Source: Celeribacter ethanolicus (GTDB lineage Bacteria; Pseudomonadota; Alphaproteobacteria; Rhodobacterales; Rhodobacteraceae). Taken from it: a DNA stretch of 64,000 nucleotides. Made by a program: the position numbers and the translations under genes. Each line of letters opens with the position of its first letter. The stretch's first letter is position 1. This document shows, piece by piece, positions 17,491-30,184 of the stretch. Location: positions 1 through 64,000 of the forward strand of contig NZ_LRUC01000013.1 of the NCBI RefSeq assembly GCF_001550095.1. The letters run 5' to 3'. The notes beneath the pieces were generated by a model. The model saw nothing but the letters and a program-made list of their open reading frames with translations. It made no database searches and was not told the DNA's origin.

Positions 17491-18369
17491 ATGGCAAAAG
17501 AAATTCTCGTCGGTTTCGGGATTGATGTGGACGCCGTGGCCGGCTGGCTCGGTTCCTACGGCGGCGAAGACAGCCCGGACGACATTTCCCGCGGCATGTT
17601 CGCGGGCGAGGTCGGCTCGATCCGTCTGCTCGACCTGTTCGACAAGCTCGGCATCAAGACGACGTGGTTCATCCCCGGCCATTCCGTCGAAACCTTCCCG
17701 GAGCAGATGAAAGAGGTCGCCAAACGCGGCCACGAGATCGGCATTCACGGCTACAGCCACGAAAACCCGATCGCCATGACCCCGGAGCAGGAAGAGGCGG
17801 TTCTCGACAAATGCATCGGCCTGATCACCGAGCTGTCCGGCAAACGTCCGACCGGCTATGTCGCGCCGTGGTGGGAATTCTCTCCGGTGTCCAACGAGTT
17901 GCTTTTGAAAAAAGGCATCAAATACGACCACTCGCTGATGCATAAGGATTTCGAACCCTACCGCGTGCGCGTGGGCGATACCTGGACCAAGATCGACTAC
18001 GCGGGCAAGCCGGAAGACTGGATGAAGCCCTTGGAGCGTGGCGAGGAAACCGATCTGATCGAGATCCCGGCGAACTGGTATCTCGACGACCTGCCGCCGA
18101 TGATGTTCATCAAGAAATCGCCGAACTCGCATGGTTTCGTGAACCCGCGCGACATCGAGCAGATGTGGCAGGACCAGTTCGACTGGGTCTACGAGAACAT
18201 GGATTACGCGGTCTTCCCGATCACCATCCACCCCGACGTTTCCGGTCGGCCGCAAGTGCTTTTGATGCTCGAACGCCTGTTCAAGCACATGGCCTCGCAT
18301 GAGGGTGTGAAATTCGTCACCATGAACGAGATGGCGGACGATTACGACGCGAAATTCCCGCGCGGCTGA
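17491..18369 (+). CDS. Cytosolic polysaccharide-deacetylase-family hydrolase (HP0310/PgdA, PuuE and cyclic-imidase-like)
   Basis: 292-residue NodB-fold hydrolase without signal peptide or membrane segment. [16 protein letters not shown] at the N-terminus and the metal-site [12 protein letters not shown] near residue 88 make it strikingly like Helicobacter pylori HP0310 (PgdA, about 293 residues) as I remember that sequence. The same branch contains the ureidoglycolate-forming allantoinase PuuE and cytosolic cyclic imidases. A cytoplasmic place and operon linkage to an importer argue for hydrolysis of an imported small amide or imide rather than peptidoglycan deacetylation. AGGAG lies 9 bases before the start. 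It is the last gene before a strong terminator. Confidence 0.85.
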
Positions 18370-18387
18370 CTCCTCGTGGGTTCACTG

Positions 18388-18422
18388 GGCGGACGGCCTT
18401 CCCCTGTGCCGTCCGTCTTTTT
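18388..18422 (+). terminator. Rho-independent terminator after the deacetylase gene
   Basis: 10-bp stem (18388-18397 with 18408-18417, one G-U pair, core GGACGGC / GCCGTCC), a 10-base loop, then TTTTT. It closes the ABC-SDR-deacetylase operon and separates it from the CxxC-CobW genes. Confidence 0.8.
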
Positions 18423-18446
18423 CGACGGTTTTGAGAGGAGCGGACC

Positions 18447-18779
18447 ATGTGTTCCCTGTGCGGTATTCTCGGGTGTGACGATCACTGGACCAACGCGATT
18501 GCGCGGCCGGGCGTCTACACACGCAACCACGATATGCCCGCCCGTCGGGCCGAGGCCGCGCGCCGCATGAAAGCCGCGAATGACATTCTCTCTTACCGTC
18601 GTGTCAAACTCGATGTCTGGCAGGGGCGGTCCTATGTCGTGAGATCTCCGACCGGGGCGTCGAGCGTGTTTGAGGCGCTGTCACATCTCTGGCCCGAGGC
18701 CGAAGCCCTCGCGGGCCGCGACTTTGATCCGCTCGACGATGCGTTGATTTCCTGGATGGAAGCGCGAGGTGACGCATGA
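18447..18779 (+). CDS. Small CxxC protein of unknown function, coupled to CobW
   Basis: 110-residue protein I cannot place in a family. It opens with MCSLCGILGCDDHW, giving a CxxC pair plus a third cysteine and a histidine that could bind zinc or another metal. The remainder is helical and charged with many Arg and Trp. A GAGAGGAG ribosome-binding site precedes the ATG. Its stop overlaps the CobW start by 4 bases (ATGA), so the two proteins are made together and may interact. The gene is not a nitrile hydratase alpha subunit despite the CSLC string; it is too short and lacks the CxLCSC site. Confidence 0.8.
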   Translation: MCSLCGILGCDDHWTNAIARPGVYTRNHDMPARRAEAARRMKAANDILSYRRVKLDVWQGRSYVVRSPTGASSVFEALSHLWPEAEALAGRDFDPLDDALISWMEARGDA

Positions 18780-19822
18780 CGCCTGTTATTCTGCTCACCG
18801 GCTTTCTGGGTTCCGGCAAAACCACGCTGTTGCAACGTCTGCTGCAAGACCCGTCTATGGCGGGGGCGGCGGTGCTGATCAACGAATTCGGTGAGGTGGG
18901 GCTGGATCACCATCTTCTGGATCGGATCGACGACAATGTGATCCTGCTGAAATCCGGCTGTATCTGTTGCACCGTGCGCGGCGAGGTGGCCGAAGCGCTC
19001 GGCAATCTCGACAGCCTGCGGGCGCGGGGCGAGATCGCTTTTGACCGCGTGGTGATCGAGACCACCGGGCTGGCCGATCCTTATCCGGTGTTGCAGACCC
19101 TGACCGCACATCCGGTGCTGCGCTCGCATTTCACCAATGGCGGCGTGCTGACCACGGTCGATGCCGTCAATGCGCGGCTTCAGGTCGAGCATCGCGCCGA
19201 AGCCGTCCGCCAGATCGCGGCGGCGGATCGCATTGTGTTGACCAAGACCGACCTGGCGGAACCGGGGCAGGATCAGGCGCTGCGCGACCGTCTGGCCCGG
19301 ATCAACCCGGCGGCGCGGATCGTGAACAGCGAGGCGCCGGTGGCGGAGATCCTTGGCGGCTTTGGTCCGGCGGCCTTTGCCGAGGGGCTGGTCGGCAGGG
19401 AAGCACATGGTCACATCTGCGGGCCGGACTGTGGTCATGAGAGCCACAATCACGCCCATCACCACCATGCGTCTCACGCGGCGCATCATCATGACGATGT
19501 CCTTGGCGTGACAAGCTTTTCTCTCGTCATCGAAGATGAGATCAATTGGACTATGTTCGGAACCTGGCTTACACTGTTGCTGCATAAGCATGGCGATAGG
19601 ATTTTCAGGGTGAAGGGTATTTTGGCGCTCGAAGGCGAAGACAGACCGATTGCGATTCACGGCGTGCAGCATCTTGTGCATGCGCCCACGCATATGACGC
19701 ACTGGCCGGACGGGCCGCGCCAGTCGCGCATCGTCTTTATTCTCGAAGGGCTGTCGCCCGAACAGATCCGTCGCAGCTTTGCCGCGTTCATGGGGCTCTC
19801 CGGCGTCCGGGCCGCCGCGTGA
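18776..19822 (+). CDS. CobW/COG0523 P-loop GTPase with a His-rich metal loop
   Basis: 348-residue G3E GTPase that probably delivers zinc or another metal to a client enzyme. The Walker A is GFLGSGKTT near residue 9, the metal-site CxCC is GCICCTVRG near 62, and ETTGLADP and TKTDL are the further nucleotide motifs. Between the two domains, at about residues 210-240, is a loop crowded with histidine plus two cysteines (HICGPDCGH and a following run of His). Clients are unknown. The adjacent CxxC protein, or the metal-dependent hydrolase encoded at 17491-18369, are the nearest candidates. Start overlaps the upstream stop and stop overlaps the next start. Confidence 0.93.
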   Translation: MTPVILLTGFLGSGKTTLLQRLLQDPSMAGAAVLINEFGEVGLDHHLLDRIDDNVILLKSGCICCTVRGEVAEALGNLDSLRARGEIAFDRVVIETTGLADPYPVLQTLTAHPVLRSHFTNGGVLTTVDAVNARLQVEHRAEAVRQIAAADRIVLTKTDLAEPGQDQALRDRLARINPAARIVNSEAPVAEILGGFGPAAFAEGLVGREAHGHICGPDCGHESHNHAHHHHASHAAHHHDDVLGVTSFSLVIEDEINWTMFGTWLTLLLHKHGDRIFRVKGILALEGEDRPIAIHGVQHLVHAPTHMTHWPDGPRQSRIVFILEGLSPEQIRRSFAAFMGLSGVRAAA

Positions 19823-21015
19823 TGACGGAACCGCTTCGCATTCTCACCACGGAAATTCAGCCCTGGCGCTTTCTCAAGGACCGCGCCGAGGCGGATCTGG
19901 GCTTTCCGCTCGAATTCATCGAGATGGATTTCAACAGTGCGCAACGCACGGCCGCGCTCGATCCGTCACGCTATGACGTCTACGATCAGTGTTTCCACAA
20001 CCTCGACATCGTCTGGTATTGGCGCGCTGTGCAGGCCATCGACACCCGCCGGATCACCCATTGGGACGATCTCGACGAGCTGTCGCGGATCATGGGGACA
20101 AGCGGGCGTCAGGCGCTGGGCGATGTGCCCGCTTCGCGCCTCTTCGTGCAGCACGACATGACGCTCTCGGACAGCCCGAGTGGGCGGATTTCCATGCTGC
20201 CGACCTTTTACAACTTCGACAGTTTCGGGGTGGAGACCGAAGGGCTGGACGTCGACCGCGACATCCGAAGCTGGGCAGCGCTTCTGGACCCGCAATGGGC
20301 GGGGCGGGTTTCTTTGGTCGATGAGCCGGCGATCGGTCTCTTCGATCTGGCGCTGGCTCTGTCGGCCTCGGGGCAGATGGAATTCGAGAACATGGGCAAT
20401 ATGTCCGTGGCGGAAATCGACGCCCTCGTTGAGCATGGCAAGAGCCTCATTCATGCCGGACATTTGAGCCCCTTCTGGCTGCGCGCCGATGAACCGGTCG
20501 AGCGGTTTATGAGCGGCGAGTTGAAACTCGCCTCGATCTGGTCGCCGACGATTGTCGAAATGAAACGCCGCGGCATTCATGTGCGCCAGGCCCGCCCGCT
20601 CGAAGGCTACCGCGCCTGGCATGGCGGCATGTGCCTGTCGCGTCTGTTGAAGGACGACAAACTCGACCGGGCCTATGACTGGCTGAACTGGTATCTCGAT
20701 GGCTATGCGGGGTCGGTCGTGGCGCGTCAGGGCTATTACATGTCCGTGCCGGACCGCGTGAAAGCCCATATGTCCGAGGCGGAATGGGATTATTGGTATG
20801 AGGGCCTTCCGGCATCGCAAGACCTTGTTGACGTGGCCGGGCGTCCGGCGATCCGCGCGGGTGAAACCCGCTCTGGCGGGTCACGCAGGGACCGCGCGCA
20901 TCACATCGCGATCTGGAATTCGACCATGGACGAACATAATTACGTCGTGCGCCGCTGGAACGAGCTGGTCGATCTGGCCGCCGCGAAAGGCCGTGCGCAA
21001 CGTCGCGCCAGTTAG
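19822..21015 (+). CDS. PotD-like binding protein paralogue without a signal peptide
   Basis: 397-residue protein related to the Tat-exported binding protein at 15099-16319. Shared features are YNFDSFG, RQGYYMSVP, DYWYEGLP and a C-terminal IWNSTMDEHNYVVRRWNEL. It starts with MTEPLRILTTEIQPWRFLKD, directly in the mature fold, with no Sec or Tat leader. The start shares one base with the CobW stop, leaving no room for one. The protein is therefore expected in the cytoplasm, where it might act as a ligand sensor, a carrier or an enzyme of the same fold. An export by partnership with another Tat substrate cannot be excluded. Confidence 0.85.
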   Translation: MTEPLRILTTEIQPWRFLKDRAEADLGFPLEFIEMDFNSAQRTAALDPSRYDVYDQCFHNLDIVWYWRAVQAIDTRRITHWDDLDELSRIMGTSGRQALGDVPASRLFVQHDMTLSDSPSGRISMLPTFYNFDSFGVETEGLDVDRDIRSWAALLDPQWAGRVSLVDEPAIGLFDLALALSASGQMEFENMGNMSVAEIDALVEHGKSLIHAGHLSPFWLRADEPVERFMSGELKLASIWSPTIVEMKRRGIHVRQARPLEGYRAWHGGMCLSRLLKDDKLDRAYDWLNWYLDGYAGSVVARQGYYMSVPDRVKAHMSEAEWDYWYEGLPASQDLVDVAGRPAIRAGETRSGGSRRDRAHHIAIWNSTMDEHNYVVRRWNELVDLAAAKGRAQRRAS

Positions 21016-21054
21016 CGAATCTCTCTTGGAATTTCTGAACACGGAAAGACACCG

Positions 21055-22044
21055 ATGAAACATGTCGTCCTGATCGCCACGGGCGGAACCATTGCCTCCG
21101 CCGCCGATAAAACCGCCGGTGCCGTCAATGCCGGGCTGAGCGGTGAAACCTTGCTGGCAAGCCTGCACCAGCCGCTTGAAGGCATCTCCGTCACGGTCGA
21201 GAATTTCGAGGCGGCGGGCAGCTATGCGCTCGATCTGGTGACCATTCACCGGCTTTGTGGCCGGATCGACGAGGTGCTCGCCGGGGACGATGTGGACGGC
21301 GTTGTCGTCACCCATGGCACCGACACGATGGAGGAAAGCGCGTTTCTCGCCTGGCTTCTGGTCAAAAGCGACAAGCCCGTGGTCTTCACCGGCGCACAGC
21401 GCCATGCCGGTCAGCCAGACACAGACGGCCCGCGCAACATCCATGACGCGATCTGTGCCGCCGGCTGCGCCGATCTGACGGGTGTCGGCGCCGTGATCCT
21501 CTTCGAGGGTGACATCCATGGCGCGCGCTATGTGACCAAGGCGCATACCTCGCGGGTCGACACCTTCCGCTCCGTGGGCTTGGGCAAATTCGGCGAGGTC
21601 GATCACGGGATCGTCCATCTCTACACCCGTCCGGCCAAGGCCCGCGTGGTGCTGGAGACCCCTGCGCTCGACCGGGATGTCGAGTTGATCGGGTTGGGCC
21701 TCGGGACTTCGCCCCGGCTGATGGAATTGGCGGGGCAGGCGGGCGCGACGGGGGTCGTGTTGTCCGCCTTCGGGCGCGGCAATGCCCCCAGAGGCTTTGG
21801 CGATGCCACGGCGCGTCTCGTCACCTCGGGATGCCCGGTCGTGGTGGCGTCCCGCTGTCACGAGGGGCGCACGCAGGCGATCTATGGCAAGGACAGCGGT
21901 GGCGTGACGCTGGTGGCCCAAGGCGCGCTTCTGGCGGGGGATCTTTCCGCAGTAAAGGCGCGCCTGCTGCTCTCGACTCTTCTGGGCAAGGGGCTGTCGG
22001 GCCCCGATCTTGCCGGGGCCTTTGCCGCAATTGCCGAGGCCTGA
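21055..22044 (+). CDS. L-asparaginase family amidohydrolase
   Basis: 329-residue enzyme hydrolysing asparagine, or a related half-amide, to the acid and ammonia. Both threonine signatures are present: ATGGTIAS near residue 8 and VVTHGTDTMEES near 84. There is no signal peptide, so it acts in the cytosol. The gene follows the leaderless binding protein after 39 bases and is probably cotranscribed with the CobW genes. Next to a possible cyclic amidohydrolase, a half-amidase role (for example on succinamate-like products) is worth considering, but this is inference. Gene end is 16 bases from the convergent small gene. Confidence 0.92.
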   Translation: MKHVVLIATGGTIASAADKTAGAVNAGLSGETLLASLHQPLEGISVTVENFEAAGSYALDLVTIHRLCGRIDEVLAGDDVDGVVVTHGTDTMEESAFLAWLLVKSDKPVVFTGAQRHAGQPDTDGPRNIHDAICAAGCADLTGVGAVILFEGDIHGARYVTKAHTSRVDTFRSVGLGKFGEVDHGIVHLYTRPAKARVVLETPALDRDVELIGLGLGTSPRLMELAGQAGATGVVLSAFGRGNAPRGFGDATARLVTSGCPVVVASRCHEGRTQAIYGKDSGGVTLVAQGALLAGDLSAVKARLLLSTLLGKGLSGPDLAGAFAAIAEA

Positions 22045-22060: not shown

Positions 22061-22378
22061 TCAGAGGTTGCGGGCGATGCGGGCCGTCACGACGGTGTTG
22101 AGGGTTTCGAGCTGCTTGGCCTTGTCGGCCTGCGCCACCGCGTCCAGAGCACGAATGTCGTCCTGAAAGGCGGTGAAATTCCGGTCGAGTTCTTCGCCCG
22201 ACAGGGGTTGACGCTCGTGCAGCTCGACGAAGTTTTCTGCCGTCGTGGCAAGGAAATAGAAGGCTGTGGCATGATCCGGTTCCTCGAGCGCGCGCGCGAA
22301 GGCGGCTTTCGAAGCGGCGGCATAGGCGTGGATGCCACGGCCTTTTTCGGTGATCAGATCGAGGAGGAAAGTGTACAT
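22061..22378 (-). CDS. Small helical protein of unknown function, last gene of the TRAP-pyr operon
   Basis: 105 residues, mostly amphipathic helix (MYTFLLDLITEKGRGIHAYA at the start), soluble, with no recognised motif. AAGGAG precedes the ATG at 22378. It lies 29 bases downstream of pyrE and closes the operon. Its conservation next to the pyrimidine genes in other genomes would show whether it is a pathway subunit. No function is proposed. Confidence 0.75.
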   Translation of the reverse strand: MYTFLLDLITEKGRGIHAYAAASKAAFARALEEPDHATAFYFLATTAENFVELHERQPLSGEELDRNFTAFQDDIRALDAVAQADKAKQLETLNTVVTARIARNL

Positions 22379-22407
22379 TCGGTGTCTCCTTAAAACATCG
22401 CAGAGGG

Positions 22408-23130
22408 TTAGAACGTCAGGCTGCGTGCGCCACCATGGGCGGCAGACCAGTCGAGCGGGGTATCGAGAAACTCAGCGATAATATCGCGTTGTTCCGGGGT
22501 GAAACGGTCATGCGCGCGGGCCACGTCGAGAATGTCTTTCCAGGTGGCGAGCGCATGAAGGCGAATGTCGGCGCGTGCCATCGCATCGCGGGTTTCGGGG
22601 AAGATGTCGTACTGGAACAGCATGAACACGTCCTCGACGACTAGGCCCGCCGCCCGCAGGGCTTGGCAGAACCGCAGTTTCGAGGCGCCGTCGGTGGTCA
22701 GATCTTCCACGAGAAGCACGCGCTGACCGGTCTCCCAAAGCCCTTCGATCTGCGCTTCGGGGCCAAACCCCTGTGCGCGTTTGCGAACGTATTGCATCGG
22801 CAGGCCGGTCTCGGCGGCGATCCAGGCGGCAAAGGGAATGCCGGCGGTTTCGGCACCTGCGATGGCGTCGATCCGGTCGCGCCCGATCTCCGCGTCGATC
22901 ACCTCGGTGGCAAATCCCATAAGCTTTTCGCGCACGGCAGGGACGGAGATGACTTTGCGCACATTGATATAGACCGGGCTTGCGATGCCCGATGACAGGA
23001 TAAAGGGCCGCTCCCCCGCGACTTCGACGGCGCGAATGTCGAGAAGGGCAAGTGCCGTGCGTCGGGCGAAATCGGCACGGGTTTCGGGGCTCAAGGGCAT
23101 ATGTGGCGGCATGGATTTCGGGTCCTTCAT
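22408..23130 (-). CDS. pyrE: Orotate phosphoribosyltransferase
   Basis: Transfers ribose 5-phosphate from PRPP to orotate giving orotidine monophosphate. The 240-residue protein has the PRPP loop VLLVEDLTTDGASK near residue 138 and a GAETAGIPFA segment near 93. The start at 23130 overlaps the upstream stop by 4 bases (ATGA). Being in the same operon as a dihydroorotate dehydrogenase pair and a transporter suggests that imported orotate or dihydroorotate can be diverted to UMP. It may also be simply the housekeeping pyrE. Confidence 0.93.
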   Translation of the reverse strand: MKDPKSMPPHMPLSPETRADFARRTALALLDIRAVEVAGERPFILSSGIASPVYINVRKVISVPAVREKLMGFATEVIDAEIGRDRIDAIAGAETAGIPFAAWIAAETGLPMQYVRKRAQGFGPEAQIEGLWETGQRVLLVEDLTTDGASKLRFCQALRAAGLVVEDVFMLFQYDIFPETRDAMARADIRLHALATWKDILDVARAHDRFTPEQRDIIAEFLDTPLDWSAAHGGARSLTF

Positions 23131-24407
23131 GAGGTAGCCTCCAGACAGGTGGCGAGGATGTCCACGCCCACCATGAAATCGGCAATTTCCATCGCCTCGT
23201 CGGGGTTGTGTGAGCCGTTGCGGTTGCGCACGAAGACCATGCCGGAGGGCACGCCCGCCTGTGCGAAGACCGCCGCGTCATGGCCGCCGCCCGAGGCCAT
23301 GGAAAACGCCTCGCCGCTGACCCGCGCCATGGCCTTTTCCAGCGCCTTGACCAGTGTCGGGTCCATGAGCGCCGGGGCGACGGCGACCTCCGGGCCAAGC
23401 TCGAAGCGTACGCCGCGGGAGCGCGCGATGTCGGCCATTTCACCTTTGAGATAGGCGCGCATCCGGTCGAGCGTTTCGGTATCCTGCGAGCGGATGTCGA
23501 GGGAAAATCCGATCTCGTCGGGGATGCGGGCAATGGCATGGCGGGTCGGATCGGTGCCGACGACGCCGGATGTCAGCACAAGATCCTGACCGGTGTTGAG
23601 CAGGTGTTGCCAGGTGCCGTCAAGCCGGTGCATCAACTCGGCAAAGGCCAGCACCGGGTCGTGGCGATAGGCGCGCGGTACGGCGCCGGAATGCCCGGCC
23701 TGACCGATGCAGCGCGCATCGCGATAGCGGAAATTGCCGCGAATGCCGGTGACGACGGCGGCGGGGATGTTGCGTTCGACCAGAAGCGGGCCTTGTTCGA
23801 TATGCAGTTCGAGATAGGCTTCGATCCGGCTCAGATCGCAGATCGGTTCCTGCGCTTTGACCGGGGCGATGTCGATCCCGAGCGCATCGAGATGCGCACT
23901 CAAGGGCCGGCCATCGGCTTTATGGGCTGCGTTGAACTCCGCCTCGGGCAGGGTGCCGGTGAGCATTTTCGAGCCGAGATAACAGGCCCCGAACCACGCG
24001 CTTTCCTCGCCGCGCATCGCGAGAACCCGCAGCGGACGGGGCAGGGCGCGGCTGCCCCGGCGCGCCTCGATCAGAACCATAAGCCCGGCGATCACACCCG
24101 CAAGCCCGTCGTAATTTCCGCCCATCGGGACAGAATCCACATGGCTGCCAATCACCGTATAGCGCTTGGCGGCGGCATGTTGCGGCAGGTAAAACACCAG
24201 ATTGCGCCCGGCATCCTCTTCGAAGCAAAGCCCCTCGGCGCGGGCGCGTTTCGAAAGATAGTCGAGCGTTTCGGTCTCGATCTCCGAAAAGGCCGGCCGG
24301 CTCACCCCCGCTGTGTCGCGAGACAGCGCGCGGATGTCCTCGAACATCTCTGTGGCGAGCGCGGCGAGGTCCTTTGCCCCGATTTTCGCGGTGGGATGGT
24401 GTTTCAT
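23127..24407 (-). CDS. M20-family carbamoylase / ureidosuccinase-like Zn amidohydrolase
   Basis: 426-residue metal-dependent amidohydrolase of the N-carbamoyl-L-amino-acid hydrolase, beta-ureidopropionase and allantoate amidohydrolase group. Visible are the metal ligands in IGSHVDSVPMGGNYDG near residue 86, REESAWFG near 133, LELHIEQGP near 200 and the late histidine in NRNGSHNPDEAME near 402. Such enzymes remove a carbamoyl group as CO2 and ammonia. Lying between pyrD and pyrE it could act on N-carbamoyl-L-aspartate (ureidosuccinate) to give aspartate, which would make the operon degradative. Hydantoin or uracil breakdown is the alternative, but no hydantoinase is present here. Confidence 0.88.
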   Translation of the reverse strand: MKHHPTAKIGAKDLAALATEMFEDIRALSRDTAGVSRPAFSEIETETLDYLSKRARAEGLCFEEDAGRNLVFYLPQHAAAKRYTVIGSHVDSVPMGGNYDGLAGVIAGLMVLIEARRGSRALPRPLRVLAMRGEESAWFGACYLGSKMLTGTLPEAEFNAAHKADGRPLSAHLDALGIDIAPVKAQEPICDLSRIEAYLELHIEQGPLLVERNIPAAVVTGIRGNFRYRDARCIGQAGHSGAVPRAYRHDPVLAFAELMHRLDGTWQHLLNTGQDLVLTSGVVGTDPTRHAIARIPDEIGFSLDIRSQDTETLDRMRAYLKGEMADIARSRGVRFELGPEVAVAPALMDPTLVKALEKAMARVSGEAFSMASGGGHDAAVFAQAGVPSGMVFVRNRNGSHNPDEAMEIADFMVGVDILATCLEATS

Positions 24408-25342
24408 TCGAACACCCCGGCCTCGGGCGCTTCGAGCGTGCCGATGATCTCATCTAGCGTGGCAATGTCCTGCGCGATCATCCATTCGTTCAGTTCTGCG
24501 ATCAGTCGTGCCATGACGGTGGGGGACTGGAAGGTGGCGGTGCCGATCTGCACCGCACTGGCCCCCGCGATCAGGAATTCCAAAACGTCATTCAATGTCG
24601 ACATTCCGCCGCAGCCAATGACCGGAATGTCGCAAGCCCGGGCGCATTGATAGGTCATCCGAAGCGCGATGGGTTTGACCGCGGGGCCCGACATGCCGCC
24701 CATGACATTGCCAAGCCGCGGGCGGCGCGCAGTGATGTCGATGGACATGCCGAGCATGGTGTTGGCGGTGACGAGCGCGTCGGCACCTGCGTCCTCGGCG
24801 GCGCGGGCCACCTCGACCGGCTCGCCGGTGTTGGGCGTGAGCTTCGCCCACAGCGGCAGGTCGGTCTCTGCCCGCAGTCGTGTCACAACCGCATGGGTCG
24901 TGTCGGGGCGCATGGCAAAGGCGTTGCCGTCGGCCTCGATATTCGGGCAGGAGATATTCGCCTCGATCGCGGCGACGCCCGGCAGGCTGACCTCAGAACA
25001 GAGCCGGGCGAATTCATCCATGGAATGCGCCGAGATCGACACCACCAGCGGCGCTTTGAACCCGGCCCAATAGGGCAGCATCTCGTCGCGGAAATAGTCG
25101 ATGCCTTTCGACGGAATGCCGATGGCGTTGAGCATCCCCGAGGGCATATCGCAGACCCGCGGCGTCGGATTGCCCGAGCGGGTGCCGTGCATGATGGTCT
25201 TGAGCACATGCGCGCCCAGAACATCGAGATCGAAGACGTCGGCGAGGTCTTCGGAAAACGTGCCGGAGGCGGGCATGATCGGGTTTTGGAAGGTCAGCGC
25301 GCCGATCCGGGTGCTGAGATCAGGAGTATGCAGGTCTTTCAT
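24404..25342 (-). CDS. pyrD: Dihydroorotate dehydrogenase, class 1B catalytic subunit
   Basis: 312-residue FMN enzyme interconverting dihydroorotate and orotate. NISCPNIEADGNAF near residue 125 carries the cysteine base that marks class 1 enzymes; class 2 enzymes use serine and have a membrane helix, absent here. The neighbouring PyrK-like subunit makes this the NAD-linked class 1B. The start at 25342 (MKDLHTPDL) shares one base with the pyrK stop. Many proteobacteria use a class 2 enzyme for biosynthesis, so a class 1B pair in an operon with a transporter and a carbamoylase hints at a catabolic or salvage role. Confidence 0.92.
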   Translation of the reverse strand: MKDLHTPDLSTRIGALTFQNPIMPASGTFSEDLADVFDLDVLGAHVLKTIMHGTRSGNPTPRVCDMPSGMLNAIGIPSKGIDYFRDEMLPYWAGFKAPLVVSISAHSMDEFARLCSEVSLPGVAAIEANISCPNIEADGNAFAMRPDTTHAVVTRLRAETDLPLWAKLTPNTGEPVEVARAAEDAGADALVTANTMLGMSIDITARRPRLGNVMGGMSGPAVKPIALRMTYQCARACDIPVIGCGGMSTLNDVLEFLIAGASAVQIGTATFQSPTVMARLIAELNEWMIAQDIATLDEIIGTLEAPEAGVFE

Positions 25343-26181
25343 CAGATCGCCTCCGAAATGGGAAACACCGGGCCTTCGCGGCAGACGCGGCGTTGGATGA
25401 TGCGGTCGCCGACCCGGAAACTGCGCACACAGGCCTGACACATGCCGAGACCGCAGGCCATTTGCTGTTCCATGGCGATCTCGCCGGGGATGCCGTGCGC
25501 GTCGCCGAGGTCTTGCAGCATCCGCAACAGGCGCGACGAGCCGCAGGTGTAGAAGGCGTCCACGTCCCCGCGTGCGATGCGCGCCTCGATCAGCGGGCGG
25601 AGCGCCTCGGGCGTGGAGCTGCCGTCCTCGTCATGCACAACGATCACCTCGGCGCCGTAGCTTTCGAACAACTCGACGGACATGGCCAATTCAGGGCGGC
25701 GGGCGGAGCAAATCGCGGTCAGCTTGCGGCCCTTTTCCTGCGCCATACGGGCGAGAGGGGCGAGGGTCGCAAGGCCCACGCCGCGCGCCACCAGCATCAG
25801 GTTTTGCCAGTCATCCGGCATCGAAAATCCTTGGCCCAGCGGCCCCAGCACGTTGAACCGATCACCGGGGCGCAGTGTCGCGAGGCCACGCGTGCCGGCG
25901 CCTGCAATCTTGTAGAGAAACTCCAGTCGGCCCGCGGCTTTGTCATAGCCGTAGATGCTCATCGGGCGGCGCAGGAAGGGCGTTTCCCCCTCGGGCGCGG
26001 GGCACAGGAGTTGGAAAAACTGCCCCGGTTGGCACGCGAGAATGGCCTCGGGCGCGTCCAGAGTGAGCAGGCGATATTCGCCGTTCACGGGCGTATTGGA
26101 GCGCACGATACAGGTCGCTTCGGCACAGCGGGGCCGGAGCCCCTGCGGAACAGGGACGGACACGGTTGTTGGATAAGTCAT
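25342..26181 (-). CDS. pyrK: Dihydroorotate dehydrogenase electron transfer subunit (FAD, 2Fe-2S)
   Basis: 279-residue partner that connects the PyrD FMN to NAD. The FAD motif RRPMSIYGY is near residue 71, an NAD-binding lobe follows, and the C-terminal 2Fe-2S cluster ligands are in ACGLGMCQACV near 242 plus a later cysteine in RRVCREG. The order PyrK then PyrD in one operon is usual for class 1B. The gene lies 14 bases after the TRAP permease gene, so transport and electron transfer genes are cotranscribed. Confidence 0.93.
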   Translation of the reverse strand: MTYPTTVSVPVPQGLRPRCAEATCIVRSNTPVNGEYRLLTLDAPEAILACQPGQFFQLLCPAPEGETPFLRRPMSIYGYDKAAGRLEFLYKIAGAGTRGLATLRPGDRFNVLGPLGQGFSMPDDWQNLMLVARGVGLATLAPLARMAQEKGRKLTAICSARRPELAMSVELFESYGAEVIVVHDEDGSSTPEALRPLIEARIARGDVDAFYTCGSSRLLRMLQDLGDAHGIPGEIAMEQQMACGLGMCQACVRSFRVGDRIIQRRVCREGPVFPISEAI

Positions 26182-26195
26182 TTGTCTGCCTCGGG

Positions 26196-27479
26196 TTAGC
26201 CGTAGATCAGCTTGGGAATGAAGAGGGAGATTTGCGGGATATAGGTGATCAGCAAGAGCACGATCAGGTTCACCAGCACGAAGGGCCAGACGCCTCGGAT
26301 GATGTCCGCCACGGGTTTGTTCAGCGTCGAGGAGGCGACGAAGATGTCGAGGCCAAAGGGTGGCGTGATCATCCCGAGGCTGACGTTGAGCGTCACCAGC
26401 ATACCGAAATGCACCGGATCGATGCCGAAACTCATGGCGACCGGGTAGAGCGGCGGCACCAGCACCAAAAGCGTCGAGTTCGGGTCGATGAACATGCCCG
26501 CCACGAAGAACAGCACGTTGACGGCGATCAGGAAGGAGATCTTGCCCGCGCCTGTCGCCTCAAGGAAGGCGATGATCTCGTTCGGGACCTGCGCCAGCGT
26601 GACGAAGAAGGAAATCAGCCCGCCCATGGCCAGAAGCACGAAGATGATCGAGGTGTTCACCGCGCTGTCTTCGGTGATCTTGGCGAGGCCTTTGAGATCA
26701 AGGGCGCGGAACACGAACATCTCGACGAGGATCGCATAGACCACGCTGACGGCGGCGGCCTCTGTGGGGGTGATAAAGCCGGAATAGATGCCGCCCAGGA
26801 TGATCACCGGCATGCCGAGCGCCCATTTCGCCTCCCAGATCGCTTTGAACCGCGCGGGCCAGGGCAGGCGCGCATCGTGCGTGACGCCATCGCGCGCGGC
26901 CTGGATGCGGACATAGACGGAGAAGGCGAGGCCCAGCAGAACGCCGACGGCAAGACCGCCTGCGAAGAGTTTCGAGATCGAAGTGCCGGTGATCCAGCCA
27001 TAGACAATGAGCGTGATCGAGGGCGGGATCAAAAGCGCGGTTTCGGCGGAGGAGACCAAAAGCCCGAGGCTGAATTTGTCGGAATAGCCTGCGCGACGCA
27101 GTTCCGGGTAGACCATGCGGCCCATGGCGGCCACCGTGGCAGGGGCGGAGCCGGAGACCGCGCCAAAGGCCATGGACCCGCCGACGACGACATGGCCCAT
27201 GCCGCCTTTGGTGTGGCCGACGAGCGCCTTGACGACAGAGATGAGTTGCCGTGCGATCTGGCCGGAACCCATGAGGTTGGCCGCGAAGATGAAGAACGGG
27301 ATCGCCAGAAGCGTCGAATGGTCGATCCCGCCGACGATCTTCTGCACCACGGCCGCGTCGGGCAGACGGGCGTAGAAGGCTTCCTTATAGGCCAGCGCGG
27401 GGATGCTCAGCACGAGGAGCATTTCGAAGCCCGCGACCAGGAGGATCACGGCGAGGAGGATGATGAGGGCGAAGATCAT
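26196..27479 (-). CDS. dctM: TRAP transporter large permease (DctM family)
   Basis: Large membrane subunit, 427 residues with about twelve hydrophobic segments, that carries the substrate with a sodium or proton gradient. Family signatures include FGAVSGSAPATVAAMG near residue 105 and GMITPPFGLDIFV near 370. The ATG at 27479 was chosen; it overlaps the stop of the small permease by 4 bases. The reading frame stays open much further upstream but that part is the small permease in another frame. Ligand choice belongs to the DctP protein upstream. Confidence 0.94.
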   Translation of the reverse strand: MIFALIILLAVILLVAGFEMLLVLSIPALAYKEAFYARLPDAAVVQKIVGGIDHSTLLAIPFFIFAANLMGSGQIARQLISVVKALVGHTKGGMGHVVVGGSMAFGAVSGSAPATVAAMGRMVYPELRRAGYSDKFSLGLLVSSAETALLIPPSITLIVYGWITGTSISKLFAGGLAVGVLLGLAFSVYVRIQAARDGVTHDARLPWPARFKAIWEAKWALGMPVIILGGIYSGFITPTEAAAVSVVYAILVEMFVFRALDLKGLAKITEDSAVNTSIIFVLLAMGGLISFFVTLAQVPNEIIAFLEATGAGKISFLIAVNVLFFVAGMFIDPNSTLLVLVPPLYPVAMSFGIDPVHFGMLVTLNVSLGMITPPFGLDIFVASSTLNKPVADIIRGVWPFVLVNLIVLLLITYIPQISLFIPKLIYG

Positions 27480-27967
27480 TCGGCGGCCTCCTGATAGCGG
27501 TCGATGAGTCCCAGAAGGCTGAGTCCATAACGCAGGCCCAAAAGCAGGAAGCCCGCGACGGGAGCGAGGTAGATCACGCCCATCGGCACACCGAGTGTGG
27601 GGGATTTCTGGCCGGATTTGAGCACGAATTGCACAAGATCGAGCGCCAGCCACGCCACATAAAGGCTCACGCAAAGCCCAACGAGATCAATGAGTTTCAA
27701 CACCGTTTTGCGCACCGGCTCGGGCAGGCGATCGCGCATATTGGTGATGCCCACATGTTTGCCCCGCTCCAAAGCCAGCCCGAGGGCCAGAAACACCAGA
27801 AACAGGTTCATGATCCGCACCGCTTCTTCGATCCAGGCGAAGCGGCTGGCGAATGTGCCGCCGATTTCTCGGGTCACGACCGAGCCGGTGTAGAGAAACA
27901 CCATGATCAGGAAAAGGGCGATGAGAACGGTTCTTTCGACCGTTCGGAGCAGAGTGAGGGCGTGCAT
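27476..27967 (-). CDS. dctQ: TRAP transporter small permease (DctQ family)
   Basis: Small membrane subunit of 163 residues with four predicted helices and the family pattern RFAWIEEAVRIMNLFLVFLA in the second helix region. The ATG at 27967 (MHALTLLR) is preferred because GAAAG precedes it; a GTG at 27985 would add six residues. It forms the membrane unit with DctM. Two stem-loops separate it from the binding-protein gene. Confidence 0.9.
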   Translation of the reverse strand: MHALTLLRTVERTVLIALFLIMVFLYTGSVVTREIGGTFASRFAWIEEAVRIMNLFLVFLALGLALERGKHVGITNMRDRLPEPVRKTVLKLIDLVGLCVSLYVAWLALDLVQFVLKSGQKSPTLGVPMGVIYLAPVAGFLLLGLRYGLSLLGLIDRYQEAAE

Positions 27968-28000
27968 GAGGGGGCTTTCGATCACCGTGGAAGAAGTGGC

Positions 28001-28059
28001 TCCGCATCCGGTTTGAGGCGAATGCGGAGCGGAAGGACCCGGAAGGGGACGCCGGGTCC
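28001..28059 (-). other. Tandem stem-loops between dctP and dctQ
   Basis: TCCGCAT / ATGCGGA (28001-28007 with 28022-28028) and GGACCCGG / CCGGGTCC (28035-28042 with 28052-28059). Neither is followed by a U tract on the minus strand. They probably stabilise the 3' end of the dctP message, giving more binding protein than permease. Confidence 0.5.
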
Positions 28060-28067
28060 GTCAGGTC

Positions 28068-29075
28068 TCAGAGATTGCCGTAGGCTTCGGTGTAGATGTC
28101 CAGAAGCGTCTGACCCGCGTCGCCGGTCTTGGCGACATAGGCGGCGGAGGCCGGGCCGAACATCACATCGCGGAATTCCGCACGCTCGGCCTCGTCGGCG
28201 ACACGCACATTGGTGCCTGCTTCCTTGATGGTCTCAAGCGCGCCCTCGACAGCGGCGGCTTTATGCGCGGTCAGCTCCGGGATCACCTCGGCAAACGCGT
28301 CTTTGATGATCGTCTGATAGTTTTCCGGCAGGCTGTCCCAGAACATCGGGTTGAAGAGGATCACATCCTCCATCGCGCCGTGGTCGGACACCACGAGGTT
28401 CTTCTGCACCTCGTAGAATTTCATCGCTTTAATGGTGTCGAGCGGGTTTTCCTCGCCGTCGACAACGCCGGTTTGCAGCGAGGTGTAGAGCTCACCGAAC
28501 GGCAGCGCGATGGCGGAGGCGCCAAGTGCGTTGAATTGTTCGATCAGGATCGAGCTGTCCATGACGCGGAATTTCTGACCGGCGAAATCGCCAAGCGTGT
28601 CGAGCGGTTCGTTGGAGGTGAACTGTTTCTTGCCGTTGGGCCAGAGATCAATCGCCACCATGCCCTTGTCGGAGAAGCTGTCGAGCAGTGCCTGACCGAA
28701 GGGACCGTCGCGCAGGGCGGCGGCTTTGTCGGGGTCTTCGGGGATGAGGTAGGGGATGTCGAGGATCGACACCAGCGGGTTGAAGCCGCCGAGGAAAGCG
28801 GCGGGCGCGACGGTCGCCTCAAGCGTGCCAAGCTGAACACCCTCGTTCATCTGGCGCTGGTTGCCGAGCTGGCCTTGCGGGAAAATCTGGAATTCCACAT
28901 CGCCGTCGGTGCGCTCGGAGACGAGTTCCGCAACCTTCTCGAGGTGGATGTGGCGGCTTTGCTGTGTGCTTTCGAGATGGCCGATGCGGGCCACGTAATC
29001 CTGCGCGAGCGCGGGGCTGGCCATGGCGAGCCCGGCCAGCAGCAGGGCGGACAGAAAGGGGGTGGATTGAGACAT
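28068..29075 (-). CDS. dctP: TRAP transporter periplasmic binding protein (DctP family)
   Basis: 335-residue solute receptor with a Sec signal peptide (FLSALLLAGLAMASPALAQ, cleavage after ALA near residue 24). The fold shows the family segments KFRVMDSSILIEQFNALGA near residue 166, with the arginine that usually clamps a ligand carboxylate, and LQTGVVDGEENP near 205. The expected ligand is therefore a carboxylate. With PyrK, PyrD, a carbamoylase and PyrE downstream, orotate, dihydroorotate or N-carbamoylaspartate are reasonable candidates; this is not shown by sequence alone. Confidence 0.92.
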   Translation of the reverse strand: MSQSTPFLSALLLAGLAMASPALAQDYVARIGHLESTQQSRHIHLEKVAELVSERTDGDVEFQIFPQGQLGNQRQMNEGVQLGTLEATVAPAAFLGGFNPLVSILDIPYLIPEDPDKAAALRDGPFGQALLDSFSDKGMVAIDLWPNGKKQFTSNEPLDTLGDFAGQKFRVMDSSILIEQFNALGASAIALPFGELYTSLQTGVVDGEENPLDTIKAMKFYEVQKNLVVSDHGAMEDVILFNPMFWDSLPENYQTIIKDAFAEVIPELTAHKAAAVEGALETIKEAGTNVRVADEAERAEFRDVMFGPASAAYVAKTGDAGQTLLDIYTEAYGNL

Positions 29076-29145
29076 GTAGCGCTCCCGGTTGGTTTGGTTC
29101 TCGAGATCATAGACTCCCGAAAGCGGAGGTCAGGTCAATAAAAAA

Positions 29146-29161
29146 GTCTAAAAAATGAGAC
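29146..29161. promoter_or_regulatory. GTCT-N8-AGAC element before the TRAP-pyr operon
   Basis: GTCT at 29146-29149 and AGAC at 29158-29161, spaced exactly as in the palindrome at the regulator gene (30163-30178). It lies about 70-85 bases upstream of the dctP start in an AT-rich promoter region (29076-29221). It is a candidate operator for the adjacent XRE-type regulator. Confidence 0.5.
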
Positions 29162-29221
29162 GAAATTCGATTTTGACCAGATGATTTATTTTTTGGATGA
29201 AATTTTAGGCTGAAATCCGGG

Positions 29222-30184
29222 TCAGATCCCCTCGCGTGCGATCAGGTCTTCGACATGTTCCGCCGCCTCGCGCCCCTTGAGCGCGCTGGCCCACAGCCGC
29301 TCCGCGATGCCCTCGTGCAGTTCGAGCGCTTCCGGGGCGGAAGTGATCAGGCCGACGCCGATACGAATGTTCGGATTGTGGCCGAGGCGAAACGGGCTGA
29401 TCGTGAGGATCGAGCGCCCGGCCTGGCGCATGATCTGAAAGGAGGTGGAGGGGATCGGTTCGCGGGCGACGCCGATCTGGATGCCGATGTCGGGCGCGCG
29501 CAGCATCCCGACGATGTGCCGCACCTCGGCGAGCGCCATCCTGCGGCGCTGTGCGCGGATTTCCTGCGGCAATTCCGGGCGTCCCTCAAGGCCTTCACGC
29601 AGGAATTTGCGAATATCCGCATCCGAGATGATCGAGGCGAGCAAAGGCCGCCTTTGCGCAAAACGCTGTTTTCTTCTCTCAAGAATTTCAAGGATTCTGT
29701 CGATGTCCTGATGTTCCGAGACAGGCACGGATTCGCCCAGAACATCCTTGAGCACGGCGTCGTAGCGTCCGGTCGTCACCAGATAGGAGATCGGGCTGAA
29801 CAGGCCGATGATCTGCTCGCAATCTTCTTCGATCTGACGCATGCGCTCGAAGAAGCTCACGGCATTGTCGACATATTCGATGCCGACGCCCAGAAGGCTC
29901 GGCAGAGACATATGCAGCTCATGGGCGATGGCCGCGAGCATATCGATCTTGGCGATCTCACCTTTCTCGGCCCGGTAAAGCGCGGCGCGGGAAATGTTCA
30001 GCCGGGTCGCAAGCTCTTCCGGCGAGAGGTTGCGCCCGAGGCGATGGGCCTTGAGCCGTGCGCCGATGTCTTGGAAATTGATTTGGGTGTCTTCCACTCT
30101 GAACTCGCTTGAAATCTGCCTGACCGTCTCGTGCCGGATCGGAAAGACACGGCAAACGTGTTGTCTCAAACTTGAGACAAGCAT
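29222..30184 (-). CDS. XRE-type transcriptional regulator with C-terminal effector region
   Basis: 320-residue protein with a Cro/C1-type helix-turn-helix at about residues 40-95 (IGARLKAHRLGRNLSPEELA, then ISRAALYRAEKGEI) and a long C-terminal region. I do not recognise that region with certainty; it resembles the sensor part of regulators for small-molecule uptake genes. GGGGAAACC precedes the ATG at 30184. A perfect palindrome overlaps codons 2-8, so either the gene represses itself at its own start or translation begins further in, for instance at a GTG near residue 30. It lies upstream of, and in the same direction as, the TRAP-pyr operon. Confidence 0.85.
   Translation of the reverse strand: MLVSSLRQHVCRVFPIRHETVRQISSEFRVEDTQINFQDIGARLKAHRLGRNLSPEELATRLNISRAALYRAEKGEIAKIDMLAAIAHELHMSLPSLLGVGIEYVDNAVSFFERMRQIEEDCEQIIGLFSPISYLVTTGRYDAVLKDVLGESVPVSEHQDIDRILEILERRKQRFAQRRPLLASIISDADIRKFLREGLEGRPELPQEIRAQRRRMALAEVRHIVGMLRAPDIGIQIGVAREPIPSTSFQIMRQAGRSILTISPFRLGHNPNIRIGVGLITSAPEALELHEGIAERLWASALKGREAAEHVEDLIAREGI
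30161..30180. promoter_or_regulatory. Perfect palindrome at the regulator start (TTGTCTCAA-AC-TTGAGACAA)
   Basis: Nine-base arms around a 2-base centre, positioned across the first codons of the XRE regulator gene. Its GTCT-N8-AGAC core recurs before dctP. The two sites together suggest autoregulation plus control of the TRAP-pyr operon. Confidence 0.65.

Follow-up and report, generated by a model that had tools for sequence, protein, structure and literature searches.

A TRAP importer, class 1B dihydroorotate dehydrogenase, M20 amidohydrolase and PyrE in one Celeribacter ethanolicus operon: a probable orotate-utilisation system

The window analysed here is a stretch of 64,000 nucleotides from the marine-type bacterium Celeribacter ethanolicus (contig NZ_LRUC01000013.1, positions 1 to 64,000), and our subject is a group of nine minus-strand genes that occupy positions 22061-30184 of it. 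The initial annotation of this DNA counted eight genes. The operon is real and consists of an XRE regulator, the tripartite ATP-independent periplasmic (TRAP) importer DctPQM, PyrK, a class 1B PyrD, an M20 carbamoylase, PyrE and a small helical protein. In window coordinates, the features are the following.

22061-22378, minus strand: ORF105, a small all-helical protein and the last operon gene (AlphaFold2 model with five helices, mean predicted local distance difference test (pLDDT) score 96.6).
22408-23130, minus strand: PyrE, orotate phosphoribosyltransferase, the second copy in the genome (NF001729, 292 bits, cut-off 245).
23127-24407, minus strand: M20 amidohydrolase of the hydantoinase/carbamoylase family, the proposed ureidosuccinase (TIGR01879, 261 bits, cut-off 204).
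24404-25342, minus strand: PyrD, catalytic subunit of class 1B dihydroorotate dehydrogenase, the proposed orotate reductase (NF005574, 340 bits, cut-off 269; TIGR01037 over cut-off).
25342-26181, minus strand: PyrK, the FAD/2Fe-2S electron-transfer subunit (DHODB_Fe-S_bind, 47 bits, cut-off 23.9).
26196-27479, minus strand: DctM, TRAP large permease (TIGR00786, 392 bits, cut-off 268).
27476-27985, minus strand: DctQ, TRAP small permease (PF04290, 89.5 bits, cut-off 28.3).
28068-29075, minus strand: DctP, TRAP solute-binding protein (closest to 4NN3; Asn72, Lys150, Arg170, Asn210).
29147-29160, no strand assigned: proposed operator, a 14-bp TCTMA-N4-TKAGA palindrome upstream of dctP.
29222-30184, minus strand: XRE-type regulator with a C-terminal domain of no assigned family (HTH_3 and HTH_31 over cut-off).
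30164-30177, no strand assigned: a second, looser palindrome of the same type at the 5' end of the regulator gene.

PyrD, PyrE, M20, DctM, DctQ and DctP all score over curated cut-offs, and the gene families named in the initial annotation are borne out by the NCBIfam and Pfam matches. Its statement that most genes overlap by 1-4 bases holds for four of the eight junctions (4 bases at PyrE/M20, M20/PyrD and DctM/DctQ, 1 base at PyrD/PyrK), while the genes at the remaining four stand 14-146 bases apart; likewise, the importer is fused to the enzymes in the sense of sharing their operon, not as a protein fusion.

Our comparison covers 84 loci, namely the best 80 of 565 confirmed relatives (from named genomes), three relatives from the family and the window itself. 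A gene was taken as a neighbour when it lies within 6.5 kb of PyrD, by homology, and at 60 of the 84 loci the sequence extends that far to either side. DctP stands near PyrD in 28 loci, 24 of them with the close type (TRAP-type loci), and a major facilitator superfamily (MFS) protein in 25. The same core order, PyrK-PyrD-M20, is found again with PyrD identity of at least 57% in the 24 TRAP-type loci and from ~53% up in most MFS-type loci. This recurrence spans genera of Alpha-, Beta- and Gammaproteobacteria; therefore, the arrangement is beyond chance. PyrK was found near PyrD at all 84 loci and M20 at 73, with the window type at 65 and only another type at eight; the window-type M20 is present in all 24 TRAP-type and 21 of 25 MFS-type loci. 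PyrE follows with 52 loci (21 of the 24 TRAP-type), class II dihydroorotase with 32 (one partial), aspartase with 11 (one partial, one in two pieces), an NMT1-type binding protein with six, a hydantoinase-like gene with four and class I dihydroorotase with two. The examples that we checked, dihydroorotases of L033 and L138 and aspartases of L056 and L075, are over their curated cut-offs, and the MFS protein of L056 resembles aromatic acid/H+ symporters at a score below the model cut-off (358 vs 419). Taken jointly, the genes of these relatives would spell out a route from orotate through dihydroorotate, carbamoylaspartate and aspartate to fumarate.

The closest PDB relatives of PyrD are 5ue9, 5ksw and 1ep1. 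We examined seven positions that we take to have roles in orotate binding: Lys48, Asn129, Cys132, Lys167 and Asn194 are present in all 84 loci, Asn72 in 78 and Asn134 in 80, and the window PyrD retains all seven. PyrK reached no PyrK equivalog cut-off; the assignment to class 1B comes from PyrD over its cut-off, Cys132 and the adjoining PyrK with its 2Fe-2S domain. Class 1B dihydroorotate dehydrogenases are reversible. We predict that PyrD-PyrK is an NADH-linked orotate reductase, of which the family is clear from the matches and we infer the direction. The operon PyrE is an orotate phosphoribosyltransferase by its NF001729 match, with a TIGR00336 score (104.7) just below the cut-off of 106.8.

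Among PDB chains, DctP matches 4nn3 with 442 bits and the second-best chain with 167 bits. The 4NN3 structure from Maridesulfovibrio salexigens is bound to orotic acid and departs from other TRAP proteins in having an asparagine for an acid and a lysine for an arginine (PMC11668362). By our own alignment mapping, the window DctP shares both departures, Asn72 and Lys150, and has Arg170 and Asn210 at two further positions named in that paper. Orotic acid is also listed among new TRAP ligands in a review (PMC5812351). Lys150, Arg170 and Asn210 are present in all 24 operon-type DctPs and Asn72 in 17 of them. The window DctP, being closest to 4NN3 by far and having its ligand-site residues, is of the 4NN3 type; M. 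salexigens belongs to a different phylum from the window organism. The initial annotation had proposed import of orotate or dihydroorotate; we favour orotate as the probable imported compound, over dihydroorotate and carbamoylaspartate, because the orotic-acid-bound 4NN3 is by far the closest solved relative of DctP. An AlphaFold2 model of DctP from four sequences had a mean pLDDT of 38.7 and was useless.

The M20 enzyme, with 3n5f and 1z2l/4pxd as PDB relatives, belongs to the TIGR01879 subfamily, and His89, Asp100, Glu135, His202, His239 and His376, which presumably have metal and catalytic roles, are present in 64 of 64 window-type proteins. We compared these 64 proteins (at least 40% identical; the partial one of L047 omitted) with ten other M20s, nine from related loci and one from contig C48 of the same genome, which is 26% identical to the operon M20. 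The window-type proteins carry Arg132, Arg223 and Arg394 without exception, Arg245 in 61 (Lys in two) and Arg294 in 61 (Lys in one). In the ten others, Arg occurs twice at position 132 and never at 223 or 394, neither Arg nor Lys occurs at 245 or 294, and the Asn of their 'NVIP' motif, conserved in 10 of 10, is Ser, Thr or Ala in all 64 window-type proteins. Arginines 132, 223, 245 and 294 also differ from 3n5f and 1z2l. The added positive charge beside the active-site motifs would fit the two carboxylates of N-carbamoyl-L-aspartate. From its context and the extra arginines, we propose that the window M20 is an N-carbamoyl-L-aspartate amidohydrolase (ureidosuccinase, EC 3.5.1.7), a name that is borne by none of the NCBIfam models listed for this protein (25 of 30).

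A regulator homolog lies within 6.5 kb of PyrD in 53 of the 84 loci, two of them partial; in the window, the true start of the regulator may be the GTG at 30097. We derived the operator motif from shared eight-mers and then tested it on the 84 loci with spacers of 2-8 allowed. A TCTMA-N4-TKAGA-type palindrome was found upstream of 28 operons (two matches deviate slightly), compared with ~1.8 expected from the local density or 2.7 from base shuffles, and the spacer is four bases in every match. The regulator is within 6.5 kb in 27 of these 28 loci, as opposed to 26 of the 56 others. The strict pattern TCTMAWWWWTKAGA has a single occurrence in the 4.2 Mb assembly, at 29147-29160, and the relaxed pattern TCTMANNNNTKAGA has two sites in the window, where 0.07 would be expected. 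Palindromes with exact seven-base arms were absent upstream of the window's dctP. These observations suggest that the palindrome ahead of dctP marks the promoter and is a putative site of the XRE regulator, and the palindrome at 30164-30177 points to possible autoregulation of the regulator.

The rest of the genome (4.2 Mb in 52 contigs, completeness 100, contamination 4.18) contains other pyrimidine genes. There are three DHO_dh-family genes in the assembly: that of the operon, a class 2 PyrD on contig C35 (TIGR01036, 387 bits, cut-off 200) and PreA on contig C48 (722 bits, cut-off 335). On contig C2, a class II PyrC (414 bits, cut-off 293) adjoins a further PyrE (381 bits, cut-off 245), which is 45% identical to the operon PyrE. 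The initial annotation had reasoned that without a second pyrD or pyrE the operon genes would be purely biosynthetic, and had suggested looking for a separate class 2 pyrD; the genome has this gene on C35 as well as PreA and the second PyrE beside PyrC. Class 2 PyrD is also over cut-off in 36 of the 38 operon genomes searched, which were chosen from the 80 genome loci, and the two without it, L094 and L104, are Bacillota. Because a separate class 2 PyrD exists in its own genome and in these 36, the operon PyrD is not the usual biosynthetic one. The operon is rare in both family and class: apart from the own genome, PyrD relatives turned up in 3 of 148 family members (E<=1e-60) and in 11 of 384 genomes from the class as a whole (E<=1e-70), where the second number includes a more distant clade. 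The operon does not have the PreA/PreT plus dihydropyrimidinase pair of reductive uracil degradation, and such genes sit on C48. The uracil-type cluster there (G000:C48:3000-20000, L029) contains PreA, a partner subunit, dihydropyrimidinase (591 bits, cut-off 393), an M20 and ABC transporter genes.

With a probability of about 85%, we read the locus as an inducible orotate-utilisation operon that would combine import, reductive breakdown to aspartate and a salvage branch through PyrE. DctPQM would import orotate, which PyrD-PyrK would reduce with NADH to dihydroorotate. A dihydroorotase, here the PyrC of contig C2 and in many relatives an operon-encoded enzyme, would open the dihydroorotate ring to N-carbamoyl-L-aspartate, and M20 would convert this into L-aspartate, CO2 and NH3. 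The aspartate would enter central metabolism, in some relatives probably via aspartase, while PyrE would divert part of the orotate to orotidine monophosphate and on to uridine monophosphate (UMP). The XRE regulator would act at the palindrome upstream of dctP. Salvage to UMP or degradation to aspartate had been the two fates offered by the initial annotation; the sequence comparisons support this proposal and would sharpen it to degradation with PyrE as a salvage branch. The palindromic operator, the relatives with aspartase and the recurrence of ORF105 are additions to that annotation.

Several observations weigh against this reading. The window operon lacks a dihydroorotase, as the initial annotation had noted in assigning the step to the biosynthetic pyrC, and no aspartase over cut-off was found in the genome, where the best candidate is a fumarase. 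Among the 84 loci, 11 have no M20 within 6.5 kb, some of them on short contigs, the only M20s of L065, L067, L093, L094, L095, L097, L104 and L105 are without the arginine signature, 32 loci have no PyrE near PyrD, and 56 showed no palindrome. Position 72 of DctP is not Asn in seven of the 24 operon-type proteins, and Arg394 is not unique to the window-type M20s, the L-carbamoylase 3n5f having Arg there as well. In an even sample of 385 genomes of the class, M20 was found at 3 of 12 non-own PyrD places, with ~1.5 kb covered on each side.

When linkage to M20 of either type is mapped on a PyrD tree with 96 rows, it takes 4 changes, as opposed to 18.5 with shuffled labels. Twelve rows without M20 form one well-supported and more distant group, which holds eight of the nine M20-less places of the class sample; some branches are long and unsure, including that of L132, which has M20 and is placed next to the M20-less group. 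The idea that all alphaproteobacterial class 1B PyrDs belong to the system was rejected by the class-sample linkage and the tree. Because of these same results, the system is best seen as certain class 1B PyrD clades with losses or missing neighbours. L101, L108, L109, L110 and L123-L130 are a separate class 1B PyrDK group with no M20 seen nearby, accompanied twice by PyrE and PyrC.

If the operon served pure salvage, orotate or dihydroorotate would feed only PyrE and UMP, PyrDK would oxidise dihydroorotate, and M20 would be unrelated. The frequent presence of PyrE, particularly in TRAP-type loci, and the reversibility of class 1B enzymes are in line with this account, as are L110 and L123, whose PyrDs are identical and which have PyrE and PyrC with no M20 seen. 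However, M20 is more constant than PyrE (73 vs 52 of 84), would destroy the precursor if it is a ureidosuccinase, and is joined in some operons by aspartase, and 32 loci have no PyrE near PyrD; we consider pure salvage improbable. A biosynthetic duplicate, that is, an NAD-linked alternative de novo pathway next to an incidental transporter, deserves hardly any credence. PyrD, PyrE and the relatives' PyrC do belong to biosynthetic families, but separate copies of the pyrimidine genes exist, M20 would drain carbamoylaspartate, and the importer's closest solved relative binds orotate.

It is also conceivable, though very improbable in our judgement, that the true substrate is an orotate-like ring (e.g., a 5-substituted orotate or 5-carboxymethylhydantoin) that undergoes the same chemistry, with orotate a mere ligand. 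The variation of DctP at position 72, the origin of 4NN3 in another organism and the variation of PyrD at positions 72 (6 of 84) and 134 (4 of 84) would be compatible with such a substrate. On the other hand, the operon PyrE makes most sense for orotate, and the window PyrD keeps all seven positions presumed to bind it.

As a hypothesis, the extra PyrE is likely to be there because M20 and PyrDK would undo de novo synthesis. This can be extended, in a form that we regard as unlikely, to a state in which the switched-on operon reverses the de novo pyrimidine pathway, its own PyrE makes UMP from imported orotate, and ORF105 separates synthesis from degradation, for instance through an effect on an enzyme further upstream in the biosynthesis. 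UMP would then no longer be made de novo because PyrDK would use up orotate and M20 would break down the carbamoylaspartate that aspartate transcarbamoylase makes.

ORF105 recurs in the system: 20 of the 84 loci, among them 16 of the 24 TRAP-type ones, have a relative no more than 6.5 kb from PyrD. Searches against Pfam and NCBIfam (E<=0.01) and against PHROGs (E<=0.1) gave no match for it, and its model matched no PDB fold at E<=0.001, the best E being 2.7. In the 385 class genomes, it was found in four (E<=1e-5), the own genome, G201, G483 and G545, and not in G290 and G557, two other operon genomes of the sample. The relative in G201 lies ~12 kb from its operon on the opposite strand, that in G483 beside a hydantoinase-like gene with no PyrD there, and that in G545 with no operon gene near. 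At L140:7636-10293, an ORF105 relative likewise stands beside a hydantoinase-like gene and one further gene, without PyrD.

PyrD matches (E<=1e-60) occur in 78 plasmid records, 53 of them from Klebsiella, and we inspected two neighbourhoods, one from Klebsiella and one from Agrobacterium. The Klebsiella pneumoniae plasmid, which comes from milk (L138, NZ_CP050823.1, 57274-76176), carries MFS, PyrK, PyrD, M20, PyrC, regulator and ORF105-like genes, the last with a profile match of 60 bits, and this cluster lies ~1.4 kb from lacY, followed by lacZ. Orotate is a pyrimidine precursor that is present, for example, in milk. The vicinity of lacY and lacZ fits this, and it is plausible that the cluster is a milk-nutrient island. 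On the Agrobacterium plasmid, PyrK, PyrD, M20 and ORF105 are present, and two operator-type palindromes and ABC transporter genes lie upstream. The PyrD genes of both plasmids are annotated as pyrimidine biosynthesis, which is probably wrong for this PyrD clade.

Clostridium (Zymobacterium) oroticum degrades orotate via dihydroorotate, carbamoylaspartate and aspartate, with a ureidosuccinase (EC 3.5.1.7), and the reaction sequence proposed here is identical. Its dihydroorotate dehydrogenase is called class 1B (PMC10395836). In contrast to that of C. oroticum, the present system is found in Proteobacteria, has TRAP or MFS import and a dedicated regulator and operator, and comes with a proposed M20 gene. 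Reductive uracil degradation (PreTA/PydA, dihydropyrimidinase, beta-ureidopropionase) shares the logic of reduction, ring opening and removal of the carbamoyl group by an M20 enzyme, whereas the orotate system has PyrDK and dihydroorotase in place of PreTA and dihydropyrimidinase. Lactococcal OroP also takes up orotate, serves salvage and has found use as a selection marker, but it is a single secondary transporter, for which we know of no accompanying degradation genes, unlike the DctPQM importer and degradation genes described here. No paper on an orotate-degradation gene cluster was among the matches listed from the open-access literature, in searches whose terms did not name the regulator, the operator or ORF105. 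The degradation chemistry is old, and what we propose is a dedicated gene cluster for it.

The Bacillota loci L094, L095, L097, L104, L105 and L093 combine PyrDK with a different M20, some with an allantoinase-like hydantoinase or orotidine monophosphate decarboxylase, and are possibly a parallel pyrimidine-degrading system. In the window, the plus-strand genes at 17491-22044 are convergent with the operon and comprise a polysaccharide-deacetylase-like gene with weak resemblance to PuuE, a gene for a protein of 110 aa, a CobW-type GTPase, a gene that matches no NCBIfam model and a member of the asparaginase family. The asparaginase (21055-22044) was left out of the operon because it is on the other strand.

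Ureidosuccinase was described in the biochemistry of the 1950s, and the operon would supply a concrete gene candidate for this enzyme step. The candidate is tied to a regulator, to an operator found at a single place in the assembly and to an importer whose closest solved relative is an orotate-binding protein. In this system, which occurs on plasmids and in alpha-, beta- and gammaproteobacterial genera, a biosynthetic pathway would run backwards to provide nutrients.

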